Shown here in pieces: positions 1 to 64,000 of a stretch of DNA of 64,000 nucleotides. A program made the translations under genes and the position numbers. Under the pieces are notes generated by a model, which did no database searches, was not told where the DNA came from, and worked only from the letters and a program-made list of their open reading frames with translations. Within the stretch, counting starts at the first letter, position 1. Every line of letters begins with the position of its first letter. Where the stretch lies: the NCBI RefSeq assembly GCF_030486595.1, contig NZ_JAUJZH010000003.1, positions 186,001 through 250,000 on the forward strand, in the 5' to 3' direction. Source of the stretch: Variovorax ginsengisoli (GTDB lineage: Bacteria > Pseudomonadota > Gammaproteobacteria > Burkholderiales > Burkholderiaceae_C).

Positions 1-230
1 TCAACGTGGTCGCCCCAGGGCCGATCCGCACCGACATGTTTTATGACGTCGTCGAGGCCGGCAGCGAGCGCGAGCGCGCGCTCGCCGCGTCGGTGCCGGT
101 GCGGCGCCTTGGCGAGTCCGCCGACGTGGCACGGGCCGTGCGTTTCTTTGCCGATCCCGTGAACGGTTTCGTCACGGGGCAGGTGCTGTACGTGTGCGGC
201 GGAACGAGCGTCGGCAGCCTCGCGCTCTGA
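1..230 (+). CDS. SDR family oxidoreductase, C-terminal part only
   Basis: This is the tail of a short-chain dehydrogenase/reductase whose 5' end lies outside the window; the reading frame is already open at base 3. The visible 75 or so residues begin with NVVAPGPIRTDM, the substrate-loop segment that follows the catalytic YxxxK in classical SDRs. They end with FVTGQVLYVCGG, the typical last-strand signature, followed by a short SVGSLAL tail. Such proteins are cytoplasmic NAD(P)-dependent oxidoreductases. It lies 145 bp upstream of the first binding-protein gene on the same strand and may belong to the same catabolic cluster. The substrate cannot be read from this fragment. Confidence 0.85.
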   Translation, partial: NVVAPGPIRTDMFYDVVEAGSERERALAASVPVRRLGESADVARAVRFFADPVNGFVTGQVLYVCGGTSVGSLAL

Positions 231-294
231 CACCGATCGACCGCGAACTCATGGTTCTTTCCCTTGCCATCGCAGCATTGCTTCATTAGCATTC

Positions 295-323
295 TTGACA
301 CTTAAACATTTCATAAATCATGT
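295..323 (+). promoter_or_regulatory. possible promoter upstream of the first binding protein
   Basis: An exact TTGACA (295-300) lies in an AT-rich stretch 75 bp before the start codon at 376. No strong -10 is present: the best candidate, AATCAT at 316-321, has a short 15-bp spacer. ACAT/ATGT arms (307-310 and 320-323) suggest a possible operator. This is inference from composition and motif only. Confidence 0.3.
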
Positions 324-375
324 TCTTGTTTGAAGTCCCCGCTTCGTCGTTTGTCTCCAACCTGAGGAGGTTTGC

Positions 376-55002: not shown

Positions 55003-55167
55003 GCGGCCTGGCGCCAGGGCGCGCCCGGTCGGGTTGCACCAAGGGGCAATCGCCGCTTCACCTTGGGACAAGTGCGTTTTGTGCCCGGCTTGCGCATGCT
55101 GTGGGCACGCTGCGGCGCGGCGGGTTGCCCGCACGCGCCAGCGCACCCCTCACAACCAGGAGTCGAC

Positions 55168-56742
55168 ATGGCATCGAAGAAACCCGCCGCCAGCCCGTCC
55201 GGAGCGAAGCCGCCCAATATCCTCGTGATCTGGGGCGACGACATCGGCATCGCCAACCTCAGCTGCTACACGCACGGCCTGATGGGCTACCAGACGCCCA
55301 ACATCGACCGCATCGCCAGGGAAGGGATGAAGTTCACCGACTCCTACGGCGAGCAGTCCTGCACCGCCGGCCGCTCGTCCTTCATCACCGGCCAGAGCGT
55401 CTACCGCACCGGGCTCTCGAAGGTTGGCATCCCGGCCGCGCCGATCGGCATGAGCGACAAGATCGTCACCATCGCGGCGCTGCTCAAGACCCGGGGCTAT
55501 GCCACCGGCCAGTTCGGCAAGAACCACCTGGGCGACCGCAACGAGATGCTGCCGACCAACCACGGCTTCGACGAATTCTTCGGCAACCTCTACCACCTGA
55601 ACGCCGAGGAAGAGCCGGAGATGTACGACTACTACCCAGAGAAGGACTTCCCCAATTTCAGGAAGAAGAACGGCCCGCGCGGCGTGATCCACTCCTATGC
55701 CACCGACAAGGACGACGCGACCGAGGAGCCGCGCTGGGGCCGCGTCGGCAAGCAGAAGATCGAAGACACCGGCCCGCTGACCAAGAAGCGCATGGAGACC
55801 TGCGATGACGAATTCGCCGAGGCGGCGAAGGGATTCATCGGCAAGCAGCACGAGGCGGGCAAGCCCTTCTTCGTCTGGCTCAACTTCACGCACATGCACA
55901 TGTTCACGCACACCAAGCCCGAGAGCCTGGGGCAGGCCGGGCGCTGGCAGTCGCCCTACCACGACACGATGATCGACCACGACAAGAACGTCGGCCAGCT
56001 GCTGGACTACCTCGACGAGCTCGGCATCGCCGAAGACACCTTCGTCATGTATTCGACCGACAACGGCCCGCACATGAACAGCTGGCCGGACGGCGCGATG
56101 ACGCCTTTCCGCAGCGAGAAGAACACCAACTGGGAAGGCGCCTTCCGCATTCCGATGGTGGTGCGCTGGCCCGGCCATGTGCCCGCCGGCAGCGTCTCCA
56201 ACGGCATCGTCCAGCACCACGACTGGCTGCCGACCTTCCTCGAGATGGCGGGCGAGCCCGACATCGTCGAGAAGTGCAAGAAGGGGGTGCAGGCGATCGG
56301 CCGAACGTACAAGAACCACATCGACGGCTTCAGCCTGCTCGGCCACATCACGGGCAAGGAGAAGGAGAGCCCGCGCAAGCTCTTCGTCTACATCAGCGAC
56401 GACGGCGACATCCTCGGCCTGCGCTACGACAACTGGAAGGTGGTCTTCATGGAGCAGCGGCTGCCCGGCACCATGGCGGTGTGGGCCGAGCCCTTCGTCC
56501 GGCTGCGCCTGCCGAAGATATTCAACCTGCGAACCGATCCCTTCGAGCGGGCGGACACGACGTCGAACAGCTATTACGAGTGGTTCCTGTATCACGCCTA
56601 CATCCTGTATGGCGCCTACGCGATCGCCGACCAGTTCGCCGCCACCTTCAAGGACTTCCCGCCGGTCCAGAAGCCCAATACCTTCACCATCGACGACGCG
56701 CTGTCGAAGATGGCCGAAGCCTCCGCGGGCGGCGCCACCTGA
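55168..56742 (+). CDS. sulfatase (arylsulfatase family)
   Basis: This 524-aa sulfatase has the N-terminal metal site PPNILVIWGDDIG and the modification motif SCTAGRSSFITG, in which the Cys would be converted to formylglycine. It is a C-x-A-x-R variant of the usual C-x-P-x-R. Further sites are FGKNHLGD, HMHMFTHT, YSTDNGPHMNSW and FRSEKNTNWEGAFRIP. No signal peptide is evident, so it may be cytoplasmic; sulfatase maturation needs a formylglycine-generating enzyme not seen here. AGGAG precedes the ATG at 55168. It leads an operon with DUF1254, HAD, DUF202 and RND efflux genes, which suggests handling of a sulfated or organic anion. Confidence 0.9.
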   Translation: MASKKPAASPSGAKPPNILVIWGDDIGIANLSCYTHGLMGYQTPNIDRIAREGMKFTDSYGEQSCTAGRSSFITGQSVYRTGLSKVGIPAAPIGMSDKIVTIAALLKTRGYATGQFGKNHLGDRNEMLPTNHGFDEFFGNLYHLNAEEEPEMYDYYPEKDFPNFRKKNGPRGVIHSYATDKDDATEEPRWGRVGKQKIEDTGPLTKKRMETCDDEFAEAAKGFIGKQHEAGKPFFVWLNFTHMHMFTHTKPESLGQAGRWQSPYHDTMIDHDKNVGQLLDYLDELGIAEDTFVMYSTDNGPHMNSWPDGAMTPFRSEKNTNWEGAFRIPMVVRWPGHVPAGSVSNGIVQHHDWLPTFLEMAGEPDIVEKCKKGVQAIGRTYKNHIDGFSLLGHITGKEKESPRKLFVYISDDGDILGLRYDNWKVVFMEQRLPGTMAVWAEPFVRLRLPKIFNLRTDPFERADTTSNSYYEWFLYHAYILYGAYAIADQFAATFKDFPPVQKPNTFTIDDALSKMAEASAGGAT

Positions 56743-56772
56743 GCCGGCGGCCGCCGGTTCGGGAACAGCGTC

Positions 56773-58248
56773 ATGAGCCGCCCGGCCCGCCCGCGTGGGT
56801 GGACCGCCCGCAGGGCCGGCCCGGGCCTGCCGCGAGCCCGCCCCGAGTGCTTCCCGCTGCAGGCGCTGGCCCTGGCGCCGGCCGTCCCGGGACCCGATCC
56901 CGACGCCCGGCTCAGCGACGACTACGTGCGCCTGGTGGCGCGCGACGCCTACTTCTGGGCCTGGCCGATCGTCAACGTATACAACCGGCGCATCGCCCTC
57001 GGCCGCTTGCCGCATCCGATGCTGCTGGGCGGGGTGCTGCCGGCCGGACCGGCCAACAGCCTCACGATGCTGAGCGACTACGTCGATCCCGCCGGGCGGG
57101 CGGTGGCCTGCCCGAACCATGACCTGGTGTGCGGCAGCGGCATCGTCGCCCTGGATCAGTCGCCGGTGGTGCTGCAGGTGCCCGACTTCGGCGATCGCTT
57201 CTGGGTCGTCCAGGTGCTGGATTCGCGCACCGACAGCATTGCCGAACTGGGCCGAATGTACGGCTCGCCGCCCGGCTTCTATCTGCTGGTGGGACCGAAC
57301 TGGGTCGGCACGGTGCCGCCGGGCATCCGCCGGGTGTTCGTCTCGCAGACCCGTACCGGGGTCGTGATTCCGCGCGTGTTCCGCGACGACAGCGTCCCGG
57401 ACCTGAAGACGGTGCAGCGGCTGATCAGCCAGCTCGGCCTGTACCCGGTGGCGCAGTTCGATGGCCGCATGAAGACGACCGACTGGCGCCAGGTGCCGGT
57501 GGTGCCTGCCGCGGCCGGCGGCGGGGACGCGGAAACCCGCTGGGTGGCGCCCGAGACGTTCCTGGCCGACCTGCCCGCCGCGCTGGCCGATGCCAGGCCG
57601 CTGCCGGGCGAGTCGGCGCGCTATGACCAGGTGCTGGCGGTGGTGGCCGCCGCCGCCAGGGACGCCCGCCTCAGGCAGGTCTTCGAGCAGGCGGTGGCGG
57701 CGGCCGACCGCGAGCTGGTCGAGCCCCTGTTCGAGTTCCGCAGCCATGGCCGTCGGCTGCCGCACCACTGGTCGACGATCGCCAACGGCGCCTGCTTCGG
57801 CACCGACTACTTCACCCGCACCGCGGTCGCGAAATCGAACATCTTCGTCAACAAGCCCAACGAGGCGCAGTGCTTCCACCAGGACTTCGACCGCGACGGT
57901 GCACGCCTGTGCGGCAGCGGACGCTACACGGTGACCTTCGCCCAGGGGGCCGTGCCGCCGGTGAAGGGTTTCTGGTCGATGAGCCTCTACAACGGCCGCC
58001 ATCTTTTCGAGGTCAACGCGCTGGGACGCTATGCGGTGGGCAGCAAGAGCAGGATGCGGTTCGCCGCCGACGGCTCGCTGACCATCCACGTCCAGCCGCA
58101 GTCGCCCGGTGCCGAGCACGAGAGCAACTGGCTGCCGGCACCGGCTGGCAACGCGGGCGAGTTCTCGCTTTCGATCCGCGCCTACTGGCCGGAGTCCGCG
58201 GTGCTCGACGGCCGCTGGACGCCGCCGGCCGTGGTCCGCTGCGCATGA
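56773..58248 (+). CDS. DUF1254 domain-containing protein (DUF1254/DUF1214)
   Basis: This 491-aa protein has DUF1254 (about residues 50-200; RDAYFWAWPIVNVYNRR, PNHDLVCGSGIVALDQSPVVLQ, DRFWVVQVLD) and DUF1214 (about 340-475; GRYTVTFAQGAVPPVKGFWSMSLYN, IHVQPQSPG). The N-terminus is Arg/Pro-rich and not a clear signal peptide, so the real start could lie slightly downstream. DUF1254 proteins are widespread, often beside sulfatases and HAD proteins, with unknown activity. The stop overlaps an alternative start of the HAD gene (ATGA). Confidence 0.85.
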   Translation: MSRPARPRGWTARRAGPGLPRARPECFPLQALALAPAVPGPDPDARLSDDYVRLVARDAYFWAWPIVNVYNRRIALGRLPHPMLLGGVLPAGPANSLTMLSDYVDPAGRAVACPNHDLVCGSGIVALDQSPVVLQVPDFGDRFWVVQVLDSRTDSIAELGRMYGSPPGFYLLVGPNWVGTVPPGIRRVFVSQTRTGVVIPRVFRDDSVPDLKTVQRLISQLGLYPVAQFDGRMKTTDWRQVPVVPAAAGGGDAETRWVAPETFLADLPAALADARPLPGESARYDQVLAVVAAAARDARLRQVFEQAVAAADRELVEPLFEFRSHGRRLPHHWSTIANGACFGTDYFTRTAVAKSNIFVNKPNEAQCFHQDFDRDGARLCGSGRYTVTFAQGAVPPVKGFWSMSLYNGRHLFEVNALGRYAVGSKSRMRFAADGSLTIHVQPQSPGAEHESNWLPAPAGNAGEFSLSIRAYWPESAVLDGRWTPPAVVRCA

Positions 58249-58256
58249 AGGAATCC

Positions 58257-59270
58257 ATGATGATGAAGTCCAGAACTTCGGTCACGCGCGCGGCGCGCCG
58301 CCTCCTGCTGCTGGCCTGGCTGATGGCCGCGGCCACTCTGGCGCAGGCGCAGGGTCTGCCTTCCTGGAACGACGGTGCCGCCAAGCAGGCGATCCTGCGT
58401 TTCGTGGCCGATGTCACGACCCCGGGCTCGGCCGGCTTCGTGCCGCCGGGCGAGCGCATCGCGGTCTTCGACAACGACGGCACGCTGTGGCTGGAGCAGC
58501 CGATCTACGTGCAGTTCGCCTTCGCGCTCGACCGGGTCAAGGCGCTGGCGCCGAAGCATCCCGAATGGAAGACCACGCCGCCTTTCGACGCGATCCTCAG
58601 GGGCGACATGAAGGCCTTCGCGGCCTCGGGCGAGAAGGGCCTGATGCAGGTGCTCGCCGCCACCCATGCGGGGATGACGACCGAGGAGTTCTCGCGTGAG
58701 GTGGCCGACTGGCTCGCGAAGGCCCGCCATCCGCGCTTCAAGCAGCCCTACGAGGCGCTGGTCTACCAGCCGATGCTGGAGCTGCTCGCCTACCTGCGCG
58801 AGAACGGCTTCAAGACTTTCATCGTCTCGGGCGGCGGCGTCGAGTTCATGCGCGTCTTCGCCGAGAAGGTCTACGGCATTCCGCCCGAGCAGGTGGTCGG
58901 CTCGACCGGACAGCTGGCCTTCAAGACCGGCGCCGACGGCAAGCCGGTGCTGCTCAAGCTTGCGAAGATCGACCTGGTCGACGACCATGCGGGCAAGCCG
59001 GTCGGCATCCAGCGCTTCATCGGCCGGCGCCCGATCTTCGCCTTCGGCAATTCCGACGGTGACCAGCAGATGCTCGAATGGACCGCGGCCGGCGCCGGGC
59101 CTCGCTTCATGGGCCTGGTGCATCACACCGACGCCGAGCGCGAGTACGCCTACGACCGGACGTCCAGCGTCGGCAGGCTCGACAAGGCGCTGGACGAGGC
59201 CGGCACGCGGGGCTGGACCGTGGTCGACATGAAGCGCGACTGGAACAAGGTGTTCGCGTCGGACAAGTAG
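58257..59270 (+). CDS. exported HAD-superfamily phosphatase
   Basis: This roughly 337-aa protein begins at ATGATGATG with AAGGA just upstream; an ATG at 58245 that overlaps the DUF1254 stop is also possible. A signal peptide (ARRLLLLAWLMAAATLAQAQ) suggests periplasmic location. HAD motif I is VFDNDGTLW, motif II TFIVSGGGVEF (Ser), and motif IV FAFGNSDGDQQML with acidic residues; the helical cap between them resembles phosphoserine-phosphatase-like proteins. It would hydrolyse a phosphate ester. It shares the operon with sulfatase and DUF1254, which suggests joint processing of an exported or incoming substrate. Confidence 0.87.
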   Translation: MMMKSRTSVTRAARRLLLLAWLMAAATLAQAQGLPSWNDGAAKQAILRFVADVTTPGSAGFVPPGERIAVFDNDGTLWLEQPIYVQFAFALDRVKALAPKHPEWKTTPPFDAILRGDMKAFAASGEKGLMQVLAATHAGMTTEEFSREVADWLAKARHPRFKQPYEALVYQPMLELLAYLRENGFKTFIVSGGGVEFMRVFAEKVYGIPPEQVVGSTGQLAFKTGADGKPVLLKLAKIDLVDDHAGKPVGIQRFIGRRPIFAFGNSDGDQQMLEWTAAGAGPRFMGLVHHTDAEREYAYDRTSSVGRLDKALDEAGTRGWTVVDMKRDWNKVFASDK

Positions 59271-59286
59271 CCAAGGAGGTGCTCGC

Positions 59287-59760
59287 ATGGCAGATGACAA
59301 GGCATGGGTCGACCCGGGGGCGGACTTCGATCGGGTCTCGGTCGAGCTGTCCTCGCGCCGGACCGGGATGTCGTTCCAGCGCACGCGCATGAGCGCGGAG
59401 CGGACCCTGATGTCGGTGATCCGGACATCGTTGTCGCTGATCGGCTTCGGCTTCACGATCTTCCAGGTGTTCCAGAAGCTGCACGACATGCAGGTGGTCA
59501 AGAGCAGCATGGCGGCGCGCCGCTTCGGCGAGGCGCTGGTCCTGATCGGGATCGCGATGCTGGTCTCCGGCATCGTCTACCACTGCACCTTCATGGCCGG
59601 GCTGCGCGCCGAACGCAAGATGCTGAAGAGCCAGGGGCTGATCCATGCCGAGAGCCAGTTCCCGCCGTCGCTGACGCTGGCGGTGGCGCTGCTGCTGTTG
59701 CTGCTCGGCTTCCTCGCCATCTCGAGCATGGTGTTCGACATCGGTCCCTTCGGGTCCTGA
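59287..59760 (+). CDS. DUF202 domain-containing membrane protein
   Basis: This 157-aa protein has the DUF202 N-terminal block (RRTGMSFQRTRMSAERTLMSVIRTSLSLIGFGFTIFQVF) and three hydrophobic spans (about residues 48-65, 84-103 and 128-148). AAGGAGG sits 8 bp before the ATG. Small DUF202 membrane proteins are of unknown function. Here one lies between HAD and RND genes in the same transcript. Confidence 0.85.
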   Translation: MADDKAWVDPGADFDRVSVELSSRRTGMSFQRTRMSAERTLMSVIRTSLSLIGFGFTIFQVFQKLHDMQVVKSSMAARRFGEALVLIGIAMLVSGIVYHCTFMAGLRAERKMLKSQGLIHAESQFPPSLTLAVALLLLLLGFLAISSMVFDIGPFGS

Positions 59761-59770
59761 GGGGCTCCCG

Positions 59771-61339
59771 ATGCGCCGAACGATGACTGGGTCCATGGTC
59801 GGGCCCGCCGTGCTGCTGGCCGCGGCCCTGCTGGCCGCCTGTTCCGGCAAGGAGGCCGACAAGCCGAAGCCGCCGCCCGCCGAGGTCTCGGTGCATGTCG
59901 TCAAGACCCAGACCGTGCCGGTGGTCTACGAGTTCGTGGGACAGACCGAAAGCTCGCAACAGGTCGAGATCCGGGCCCGCGTCAACGGCTTCCTCGAGCG
60001 GCGGGTCTATACCGAAGGCGCCTACGTCAAGGCCGGTGAGGTCATGTTCCTGATGGACGCCAAGCCTTTCGAGGCCAGCCTGAAGGCCGCCCGAGCCGAG
60101 CTGGCGCAGCAGCAGGCGCGCTTGAGCACGGCACGCGCCAACCTCGCCCGCGTGAAGCCGCTGGTGGCCGACGATGCGCTGGCCGTCAAGGACCTCGACG
60201 AAGCCACCGGCCAGGAGCAGGCCGCCGCGGCGGCAGTCGAAGCCGCGGCGGCCAAGGTCACCGACGCCCAGCTGAACCTGGGCTACGTGACCATCACCTC
60301 GCCGGTGGCCGGCATCTCGTCCTTCGCCAAGGTCCAGGACGGCGCCTATGTCAGCGCCGCCAACAGCCTGCTCACCTACGTCGCGAAGCTCGATCCGATG
60401 CGGGTCAACTTCAGCCTGTCGGAGAACGAGTCGCTGCGCGTCCAGGAAGAGATCGCCAAGGGCCAGCTCGTGAAGGCGCCGAACGACGACTATGGCGTCG
60501 AGCTGCTGTTGGCCGACGGATCGACCTTCCCGGCCCGGGGCCGCGTCACCTTCGCCGACGCGGCCTTCAGCCAGGAGACCGGCACCTTCCTGTTGCGCGC
60601 CGAGCTGCCCAATCCCAGGGGCCAGCTGCGCCCCGGCCAATTCGTCCGCGTCAAGGTGTCCGGCTTCACGCGGCCGAATTCGATCGTGGTGCCGCAGCGC
60701 GCGGTGCAGCAGGGCCCGCGCGGCCAGTTCGTCTGGACCGTCGACGGCGAGGGCAAGGTGATCCAGCGGCCGGTCGAGGCCGGTGACTGGCTCGGCGACC
60801 AATGGCTCGTGACCGGCGGGCTCAAGAATGGCGAGCGCGTGGTGGTCGACGGCTTCATGCGGCTGGCGCCCGGGATGGCGGTGAGCGCCAAGGAGGTGCC
60901 GGCGGAACCACTGCCCGTGGAGAAATCGACGCTGGCCGCGTCGGCGGCGCTGCCTTCGGTGTCGGCCGGACTGCCCGCCATGGGCGCAGTGTCCGCGCCG
61001 GCCATGCCGCCCGCCGCCGCCGACAAGGATGCCGTCTATTTCGAGCGCGGCCGCGCCGTGCTCGACGCCACCGGCCGCGCGCGGCTGCTGGGCGTGGCCG
61101 CGACGCTGAAGTCCCGCCCCGCGATGCGCGCCGAAGTGCAGGGCTATGTCGATGCCAGCGGCGACGCGGCCGCCAACAAGACGCTGGCCCGGGACCGGGC
61201 GCAGGCCGTGCGCGACGCACTGGTCGCCGCCGGCGTGGCGCCGGGTCGCATCGTGCTGCACGAACCCCCGAACCTGGTGGGTGCCGATTCGCCTGCGCTG
61301 GCACGCCGGGTCGACGTCGTGCTGGCGGAGGCACGATGA
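59771..61339 (+). CDS. RND efflux periplasmic adaptor lipoprotein with OmpA-like C-terminal domain
   Basis: This 522-aa membrane-fusion protein has a lipobox (LLAAC, Cys near residue 24), a barrel-sandwich/lipoyl half (VNGFLERRVYTEGAYVKAGEVMFLMD), a coiled hairpin (about 95-180), the second lipoyl half (LGYVTITSPVAGISSF) and beta-barrel blocks (RPGQFVRVKVSG, VVPQRAVQQGPRGQFVW). Ordinary adaptors end near 380-400 aa. Here a Pro/Ala/Ser linker (about 385-417) leads to an OmpA/MotB-like domain (about 418-520). Marks of that domain are VYFERGRAVLDATG, VQGYVDASGD, NKTLARDRAQAVRDALVAAGV and ARRVDVVL. The D and R expected to bind peptidoglycan are present. It pairs with the RND permease through an ATGA overlap. 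Confidence 0.88.
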   Translation: MRRTMTGSMVGPAVLLAAALLAACSGKEADKPKPPPAEVSVHVVKTQTVPVVYEFVGQTESSQQVEIRARVNGFLERRVYTEGAYVKAGEVMFLMDAKPFEASLKAARAELAQQQARLSTARANLARVKPLVADDALAVKDLDEATGQEQAAAAAVEAAAAKVTDAQLNLGYVTITSPVAGISSFAKVQDGAYVSAANSLLTYVAKLDPMRVNFSLSENESLRVQEEIAKGQLVKAPNDDYGVELLLADGSTFPARGRVTFADAAFSQETGTFLLRAELPNPRGQLRPGQFVRVKVSGFTRPNSIVVPQRAVQQGPRGQFVWTVDGEGKVIQRPVEAGDWLGDQWLVTGGLKNGERVVVDGFMRLAPGMAVSAKEVPAEPLPVEKSTLAASAALPSVSAGLPAMGAVSAPAMPPAAADKDAVYFERGRAVLDATGRARLLGVAATLKSRPAMRAEVQGYVDASGDAAANKTLARDRAQAVRDALVAAGVAPGRIVLHEPPNLVGADSPALARRVDVVLAEAR

Positions 61340-64000
61340 AGTTCGCGCACTTCTTCATCGACCGCCCGATCTTCGCGTCGGTCATCTCGATCATCATCGT
61401 GCTGGCCGGCGCGGTGGCGATGCTGAACCTGCCGATCGCGCAGTTCCCCGACATCACGCCGCCGCAGATCTCGGTCAGCGCCACCTACCCGGGCGCCAGC
61501 TCGGAGGTGGTTTCGCAGAACGTGGCGGCGCCGATCGAGCAGCAGGTCAACGGCGCCGACCGCATGATGTACATGAACTCGACCTCGAGCTCGACCGGCA
61601 ACATGACCTTGTCGATCTATTTCGAAATCGGCACCGACCCGTCGCTGGCCCAGGTCGATGTCCAGAACCGGGTCAACCTGGCGCTGCCCACGCTGCCTTC
61701 GGCGGTCAGCAGCCAGGGCGTCTCGGTGGCCAAGAAGTCGCAGGCCTTCATGATGATCGTGGCGATCTATTCGCCCGACAACAGCCTCGATCCGACCTAC
61801 ATCGCGAACTACGCCAACATCAACGTGCTGGACGCGATCAAGCGGGTGCCGGGGGCCAACCAGAGCTCGATCTTCGGCTCGCCCGACTATGCGATGCGGC
61901 TGTGGCTCAAGCCCGACCGCATGGCGGGCCTGGGCCTGACGGCCTCCGACGTGCAGCGGGCGGTGGCGGCGCAGAACCAGCAGTACGCCGCCGGCCGGCT
62001 CGGCGCCTCGCCGACCGCGACGCCGGTGCAGCAGACCATTCCGGTCACGACCTCGGGCCGCATGACCGAGCCCTCGCAGTTCGACAACATCATCCTGCGT
62101 GCCCAGCAGGGCACCGGCGCCATCGTCCGGGTCAAGGACATCGGCCGCGCCGAGCTGGGCGCCAAGGACTATTCGATCCGCTCCAAGTACAACGGCAATA
62201 CCGCCACCCTGATCGCGATCTACCAGCAGCCGGGTGCCAACGCGCTGCAGGTCGCGACCGACGTGAAGAAGCTGCTCGGCGAGATGAGGCCGACCTTCCC
62301 CGAAGGCCTGGACTACGACATCGCGCTCGACACCACCGACTTCGTGCGCGAGTCGATCAGCGAAGTGGTCCACACCTTCGTCGAGGCGGTGGTGCTGGTC
62401 GTGCTGGTCGTCTTCCTGTTCCTGCAGAGCTTCCGCGCGACGCTGGTGCCGATCCTGGCGGTGCCCGTGTCGATCCTCGGGGCCTTCATCGGCATGACCG
62501 CGATGGGCTTCTCGATCAACATGCTCACCCTGTTCGGCATGGTGCTGGCGATCGGCATCGTGGTCGACGACGCCATCGTGGTGGTCGAGAACGTCGAGCG
62601 CAACATGGCCGAGTTCGGCCTCGGCCCCAAGGAGGCCGCGAAGAAGGCGATGGACGAGGTCAGCGGCCCGGTGGTGGCCATCGTGCTGGTGCTGTGCGCG
62701 GTGTTCATCCCGGTGGCCTTCCTGTCGGGCATCACGGGCCAGCTCTACAAGCAGTTCGCGATCACGATCGCGGTGTCGGTGGTGTTCTCGGGCCTGGTGG
62801 CGCTGACGCTCTCGCCGGCGCTGGCGGCCATCCTGCTGAAGCCGCCGAAGCCGGGCGAGCACGAGAAGAAGGGCTTCTTCGGCTGGTTCAACCGGCGCTT
62901 CGAGCGCCTTACCGAGGGCTACACCTCGACCACCCGATTGGCGATCCGGCGCGTGGGCTTCTCGCTGCTGCTGATCGCCGGCATGGTCGCCATCATGCTC
63001 GGGCTCTTCAAGCGCGTGCCGTCGACCTTCCTGCCGGTCGAGGACCAGGGCTACATCTTCACCGCGGCAATCATGCCCGACGCCGCCAGCTCGACCGCAC
63101 CGAGGCGGCCACCGACCGTGCCCAGCAGTGGTTCAGCAAGCAGCCGGCGGTGAAGTCGGTGGCGTCGGTGCCCGGCTTCAGCCTGATCGACTCGCAACTC
63201 AAGTCCAACGCGGGCGTGCTCTTCGTGTCGCTCAAGGGCTTCGCCGAGCGGCAGGCGCCTGGCGACCGCGCCGACGCGCTGATCCGCGACGCCACGGCCG
63301 AATTCTCGACCTTCAAGGAAGGCGTGATGGTGCCGGTCAATCCGCCGTCGATCCCGGGGCTGGGCACCACCGGCGGCTTCGAGTTCTGGGTCCAGAGCGA
63401 AGGCGACGCCAGCCTGCAGCGGGTCGAGGAGGTGACGCGGGAGATCATCGCCAGGGCGCGCCAGCGGCCCGAGCTGCGCGGCGTCAACTCGACCATCAAC
63501 ACCCGCTCGCGGCAGCTGCTGGTCGACGTCGACCGCGACAAGACCGAGAGCCTGGGGGTGTCGGTGGACGAGGTCTATTCCACGCTGCAGACGCTGTTCG
63601 GCTCGCTCTACGTGAGCCAGTTTCCGAAGAACAGCCGGCTGTTCCAGGTCATCCTGCAGGCCGAGCCCGACTACCGCATCAAGCCGGACGACCTGCAGAA
63701 CATGTTCGTGCGCAACCACGACGGCAAGATGGTGCCGCTGAAGGCCGTGGCCACCACCCGATACGTGACTGGCGCCGACATCGTCACGCGCTTCAACAAC
63801 TTCACCGCCGCCAAGATCACCGGCGACGCCGCCGAGGGCTACAGCTCGGGCCAGGCGCTGGACGCCATGGAGGCGCTCGCCAGGGAGGTGCTGCCGCAGG
63901 GCTTCTCCTTCGCCTGGTCCGGGCAGTCCTACGAGGAGCGCAAGGCCGGGTCCACCGCCGGCATGGTGTTCGCCTTCGCAGTCGTGATGGTGTTCCTGAT
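61336..64000 (+). pseudogene. RND family efflux permease (AcrB/HAE1 type), frameshifted and cut by the window end
   Basis: This is the inner-membrane pump subunit of a hydrophobe/amphiphile RND system. It starts at an ATG overlapping the adaptor stop. MKFAHFFIDRPIFASVISIIIVLAG and FPDITPPQISVSATYPGASSEVV open the sequence, and GIVVDDAIVVVENVERN carries the proton-relay acidic pair of TM4. The frame breaks at about 63090: MPDAAS runs into an unrelated reading that stops at 63153, while the adjacent frame continues as LDRTEAATDRAQQWFSKQ and stays open to the window edge. Loss of a single C explains it. All conserved blocks survive on both sides, so either a recent inactivation or a sequencing error is possible. 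Confidence 0.85.

Follow-up and report, generated by a model that had tools for sequence, protein, structure and literature searches.

A short OmpA-like module fused to an RND efflux adaptor of Variovorax ginsengisoli and to other inner-membrane machines of Burkholderiales: a candidate peptidoglycan tether

The relation of tripartite efflux pumps to the peptidoglycan is an open question, a "missing piece" in the available text of one account of these pumps (PMC8158685). A locus of Variovorax ginsengisoli (genome of 7.8 Mb in 86 contigs) puts this question in a direct form: does the adaptor of an RND pump carry a domain of its own that could clip the pump to the wall? The window, i.e. the whole stretch of 64,000 nucleotides analysed, encodes a 522-residue adaptor for which the original prediction had proposed about 100 extra C-terminal residues of OmpA pattern beyond a Pro/Ala linker. 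The relevant features are as follows.

59287..59760, plus strand: DUF202 membrane protein, 157 residues, upstream of the adaptor (PF02656, E 1.3e-12)
59771..61339, plus strand: RND adaptor with C-terminal OmpA-like module, 522 residues (ORF list, TIGR01730, PF00691, AlphaFold)
59771..59842, plus strand: signal peptide with lipobox-like LAAC end (Cys24), predicted lipoprotein (motif by eye)
59885..60889, plus strand: adaptor core, residues 39-373 (TIGR01730, 263.4 bits against a curated cut-off of 94.9)
60923..61018, plus strand: disordered Pro/Ala linker, residues 385-416 (AlphaFold pLDDT <50)
61025..61330, plus strand: short OmpA-like module, residues 419-520 (PF00691, predicted fold)
61151..61153, plus strand: codon of D461, counterpart of Acinetobacter OmpA D271, a diaminopimelate ligand (motif and ungapped structural numbering)
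61196..61198, plus strand: codon of R476, counterpart of Acinetobacter OmpA R286 (motif and ungapped structural numbering)
61336..64000, plus strand: RND permease, continuing past the window, its ATG overlapping the adaptor stop (ATGA)
L029:10514-11992 (numbering of the window locus, L029), downstream, outside the window: OprM-like gene (locus comparison)

The domain fusion of an RND adaptor and an OmpA-like module is confirmed and well supported. The protein passes the curated cut-off of TIGR01730, and Cys24 of its putative lipid anchor is identical in 7 of 7 aligned orthologues. A profile search, as had been suggested, gives a PF00691 match at residues 423-496 (53.2 bits, E 4e-14, cut-off 27.2, model positions 1-76 of 98) that lies, by its score, far beyond chance; a DUF748 match on the same tail is weak (35.6 bits, below the cut-off of 50). 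The predicted motifs are all in place, G-x-V-D as GYVD at 458-461, N-x-x-L-x-x-x-R-A at 469-477 and R-R-V-D-V at 512-516, and the domain start proposed at 418 agrees with a model folded from 419. Among 14 adaptor-type matches in this genome only the adaptor at 59771-61339 aligns into the tail.

The full-length AlphaFold model, built from 29 aligned sequences (mean pLDDT 84.7; below 50 at residues 1-12, 25-30, 385-416 and 503-505), consists of an AcrA-like core, a disordered linker and a confident separate OmpA-like fold at 419-520. Its best structural matches are AcrA (E 1.6e-38) and MexA chains, and it has the hairpin, lipoyl, barrel and membrane-proximal parts of that fold, the alpha-hairpin being formed by helices 98-133 and 139-171. 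The tail is a separate fold beyond a disordered stretch, which rules out that it is a portion of the normal membrane-proximal domain, and on this point too the original prediction held. The module modelled alone from 36 sequences (pLDDT 88.8, pTM 0.81) has an OmpA-like fold over 102-105 residues, with OmpA/Pal/OprF/TagL/MotB-type domains as its neighbours: 9uu2 at Z 14.9, Pal 4g4w at 14.6, 3td5 at 14.0 (rmsd 2.5, 105 aligned residues), 3td4 at 13.2, TagL at 13.2 and MotB at 12.2. By their entry titles, 3td4 is a complex with diaminopimelate and 3td5 a complex with the peptidoglycan pentapeptide L-Ala-gamma-D-Glu-m-DAP-D-Ala-D-Ala. Searched by sequence, the PDB yields YiaD (2k1s, E 6e-19) as the best match, followed by OmpA and Pal domains; further matches are MotB, MotY and the PsaB chain of a photosystem I (7f4v).

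Diaminopimelate is bound by D271 and R286 of Acinetobacter OmpA, according to the available text of PMC6572160. Numbering by aligned ranges (model 1..105 on 228..339, assuming no earlier gap) places model residues 44 and 59 on 271 and 286, so that D461 and R476 would be the counterparts, and the motif G-x-x-D-x-x-G-x4-N-x-x-x-x-x-x-R-A gives the same equivalence. The motif Asp, Asn and Arg (here D461, N469 and R476) are kept in 36 of 36 modules of the folding set and in 61 of 62 related modules; the lone exception, L170, a module on a reaction-centre cytochrome, has Ser in place of Asp.

Of 101 genomes from the genus, 18 have an orthologue at E <= 1e-150, and 16 of these matches extend through the tail to the last model position, the remaining two ending at a contig edge (G027) and at model position 424 inside a 576-residue frame. 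Since the same frame is intact in orthologues, a frameshift or assembly artefact joining two genes is ruled out. Nei-Gojobori estimates for 11 orthologue pairs indicate purifying selection on the module in all 11 (dN/dS 0.07-0.44) and stronger constraint on the adaptor core (0.03-0.16); the linker drifts (0.16-1.16 in 10 pairs, undefined in one), also in length. It measures 47 residues here (cut at 373-420) and 21-86 over 21 fused proteins, the shortest being that of locus L035.

The adaptor adjoins an RND permease, with an OprM-like channel gene downstream, and this arrangement recurs: all 16 fused loci tested have the permease directly 3' of the adaptor, the ATGA overlap is found at the window locus and 14 of the 16 others, and 15 of the 16 have an OprM-like gene, the contig of the last ending first. 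In this assembly the permease frame is interrupted near window position 63090, the match to the orthologous permease being split between two frames with their junction at L029:9091, and the pump encoded here may therefore be non-functional; the permease is one frame of 1049-1066 residues in 15 of 16 relatives and is open to the contig end in the sixteenth. Since a DUF202 relative is near the adaptor in only 2 of 16 fused loci checked (L040 and L041), the DUF202 gene is probably not part of the system. It is the last of a set of genes at 55165-59760, ahead of the pump and on its strand, that encode a sulfatase-like protein (by eye), DUF1254/DUF1214, a HAD hydrolase and DUF202.

The tail is sparse. 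The Burkholderiales survey that had been proposed alongside the fusion gives, besides the 18 genomes out of 101 within the genus, at least 3 of 200 genomes of the order with the module on an RND adaptor. In a family survey of 399 genomes a close adaptor occurs in 11, fused in four (the window's own genome, G094, G168 and G263) and unfused in six; in the eleventh (L037, genome G164) the adaptor frame continues without a stop into the permease and carries no module, either a real fusion or a draft-genome error. Among 369 genomes of the GTDB class Gammaproteobacteria, 10 have so close an adaptor, the window's included, and the other nine carry no module on it. A plasmid-borne trait was considered and rejected: seven plasmid records match the adaptor, none of the seven covers 80% of the query and none reaches the tail.

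A tree of adaptor cores (47 rows, 18 fused and 29 unfused, after 21 of 68 rows were dropped, L052 for a contig that stops within the linker and the rest as distant or near-duplicate) requires five changes of the fused state, gains and losses counted alike, at least four of them forced by well-supported branches; a quick tree of all 68 rows, with L052 counted as unfused, requires six. One ancestral fusion is rejected, a single fused clade having p-AU 6.6e-6 on the 47-row tree. Fused adaptors are found in Variovorax together with two further genera of Burkholderiaceae, in G463, in Dyella halodurans, which is surrounded by four Dyella with unfused adaptors, and in L066 and G263, which adjoin unfused relatives. 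A module tree weakly groups the modules of L035, L066 and L119 with those of COX2 proteins; it has few columns, and donors are beyond its resolution.

Within its own genome the tail is closest to the module of a one-helix protein, at 46.1 bits, and then to the C-terminal end of a membrane pyrophosphatase, at 39.7 bits; ordinary OmpA and Pal domains score 29.3 bits or less. The pyrophosphatase (L101, G000:C79:256806-257087, minus strand; Pfam H_PPase at E 1e-276, and OmpA) carries the same short module at its C-terminus beyond a Pro/Ala linker, and the small protein (L100, G000:C14:125652-125924, minus strand) has one hydrophobic segment and the module, as do similar proteins in other Burkholderiales. 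A profile of the module over 200 Burkholderiales genomes, with 24 first-look candidates per genome scored, gives at least 40 copies that reach 84.3 bits, spread over at least 26 genomes, and the next match among the candidates scored is at 71.9 bits. The corresponding Pseudomonadota survey (12 first-look candidates per genome) gives at least 15 of 398 genomes with a copy at 84 bits or more, two of the 15 outside Burkholderiales, and a next match at 74.6 bits. Judged by these sequence scores, the module is a compact OmpA subfamily apart from ordinary OmpA/Pal. One copy from outside Burkholderiales (L140, genome G997) is on a DUF2853 protein. The hosts of the 40 copies, with the one-helix class and the classes of L105, L157 and L166 assigned by eye, are:

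Membrane pyrophosphatases: 13 (for one of them, a C-terminal piece alone)
Small one-helix proteins: 7
COX2 (cytochrome oxidase subunit II): 6
RND adaptors: 3
BON proteins: 3
Reaction-centre cytochromes: 2
Other cytochromes: 2 (one FixP)
DUF937 proteins: 2
Unclassified: 2

Pfam families on 58 collected hosts are OmpA (58), H_PPase (15), HlyD_D23 (9), COX2 (8: L106, L110, L118, L123, L137, L139, L161 and L165), CytoC_RC (3: L125, L127 and L170, reaction-centre cytochrome subunits), DUF937 (2), BON (2), FixP_N (1: L115) and DUF2853 (1). A literature search, mostly without subscription journals, found no published description of the adaptor fusion or of the pyrophosphatase and oxidase tails; the adaptor fusion is one instance of a broader pattern that, within the literature searched, is apparently undescribed.

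The protein shares with the AcrA/MexA family (TIGR01730) the adaptor core, a lipid-anchor-like N-terminus and an operon with permease and OprM-like channel, and differs from it in the added linker and about 100 residues, structural alignments to AcrA and MexA ending with the adaptor core; to our knowledge AcrA and MexA have no OmpA domain. The module shares with the OmpA/Pal/YiaD domain (PF00691) its fold, the Asp/Asn/Arg motif and an RRV motif before the last strand, but has a shorter loop before that strand and an invariant Pro, and forms a separate score class (at least 84 bits against at most 71.9 among the candidates scored in the Burkholderiales survey). As in MotB and TagL, which tie a machine to the wall and which the module matches in fold, an inner-membrane anchor, a linker and an OmpA-like domain follow one another; unlike MotB, the protein has no plug and no MotA-type partner, its host part being an RND adaptor, and the scan of the adaptor gave no MotB-specific Pfam family, its neighbours being the RND permease and the OprM-like channel. 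An OmpA-like tail on an inner-membrane energy complex is also seen in PDB 7f4v (chain aB, residues 754-864, photosystem I PsaB-type, 46.8 bits with the module profile), although the host there is a cyanobacterial photosystem, which we take to be that of Gloeobacter; a peptidoglycan-binding tail on that PsaB was reportedly remarked upon in older work. In the available text of the Gloeobacter structure paper the model of PsaB extends as far as residue 727, and the word peptidoglycan does not occur (PMC9000952). The YbjP lipoprotein on TolC is likewise an extra part holding a tripartite pump in the envelope, but unlike the adaptor tail it binds TolC at the outer membrane, according to the accessible part of its structure paper (PMC13082787).

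The protein is probably an RND adaptor of HAE-1 type to which a peptidoglycan-binding tail has been added, a clip that tethers the efflux pump to the wall; the wall binding, the reach and the effect on the pump are what we infer. Anchoring of the pump to peptidoglycan is consistent, at the level of sequence, with the kept Asp/Asn/Arg motif and the linker. The adaptor would be lipid-anchored at the inner membrane and packed around the RND permease, its C-terminus leaving the membrane-proximal domain as a flexible Pro/Ala linker that reaches toward the wall and ends in the compact OmpA-like domain, which would grip the diaminopimelate stem peptide through D461 and R476. The consulted portion of PMC8158685 states that the adaptor is hexameric, six per pump, and subtracting distances given there puts the inner face of the wall roughly 94 A away from the inner membrane in E. 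coli and roughly 154 A in P. aeruginosa. A stretched 47-residue linker could by our own estimate span about 160 A; at L035 reach to the wall is uncertain because the linker is only 21 residues. Up to six clips per pump might hold it at an opening in the wall, a wall that the YbjP paper locates between AcrA and TolC (PMC13082787), and so stabilise the assembly or fix its position. In pull-downs MexA-OprM was stabilised by peptidoglycan although no domain of this kind was present (PMC8158685, available text), so that the tail would reinforce a tendency already there.

Tethering is favoured by the PF00691 match, the separate fold, the structural matches to diaminopimelate complexes, the kept motif, selection on the module, the operon context and the module's presence on other hosts; counted against it are the patchy tail, the weaker constraint on the module than on the core, the short linker of L035, the Ser of L170, the interrupted permease here and the fact that AcrA/MexA-type pumps function without such a tail. 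That the tail is a passive passenger of a chance fusion, with no selected function, would accord with the patchy distribution and the commonness of unfused adaptors, but is very improbable: module dN/dS is below 0.5 in every one of the 11 pairs, the adaptor tree requires the fused state to have changed at least four to five times, and other membrane machines bear this module too. If the domain had been re-purposed for protein interaction or assembly, e.g. by contact with the outer-membrane channel or with adjacent adaptors, and had lost its hold on the wall, this could explain why ordinary OmpA/Pal domains have a longer loop before the last strand (105 residues of module where 3td5 has 112 in the corresponding span) and why the module is a distinct sequence subfamily. 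Such a role is distinctly unlikely, however, given a diaminopimelate motif kept in nearly all modules across unrelated hosts, which would not have one protein partner in common.

The tail might also bind peptidoglycan and yet serve the wall or envelope, the adaptor being an abundant inner-membrane lipoprotein that makes an extra membrane-to-wall tie, in which case loss of the tail would alter envelope integrity and not efflux. This is rather unlikely, as the tail is in frame and under purifying selection within a pump operon and is present in only a minority of genomes, even though the module does occur on proteins of unrelated activity, including one-helix proteins in which it is the only recognised domain. 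As for the preferred tether, its module is also found on pyrophosphatases, cytochrome oxidases, reaction-centre cytochromes and small membrane proteins, so that tethering in general is a likelier role than one peculiar to efflux pumps. The module would then not have been made for efflux but would be a reusable periplasmic clip, attached in evolution to several energised inner-membrane complexes in Burkholderiales. Chances are about even that this order in fact uses one tail, acquired several times, as an exchangeable clip that fastens a range of complexes to the wall (pyrophosphatase, haem-copper and cbb3 oxidases, photosynthetic reaction centres and RND pumps) and so as a general means of positioning or stabilising them.

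A natural pump with its own wall-binding-type domain on the adaptor makes the relation of pump and wall testable. The occurrence of one module on a pyrophosphatase, oxidases, a reaction centre and an efflux adaptor hints at a common way of clipping inner-membrane energy machines to the wall, and such tethering may recur in Burkholderiales.
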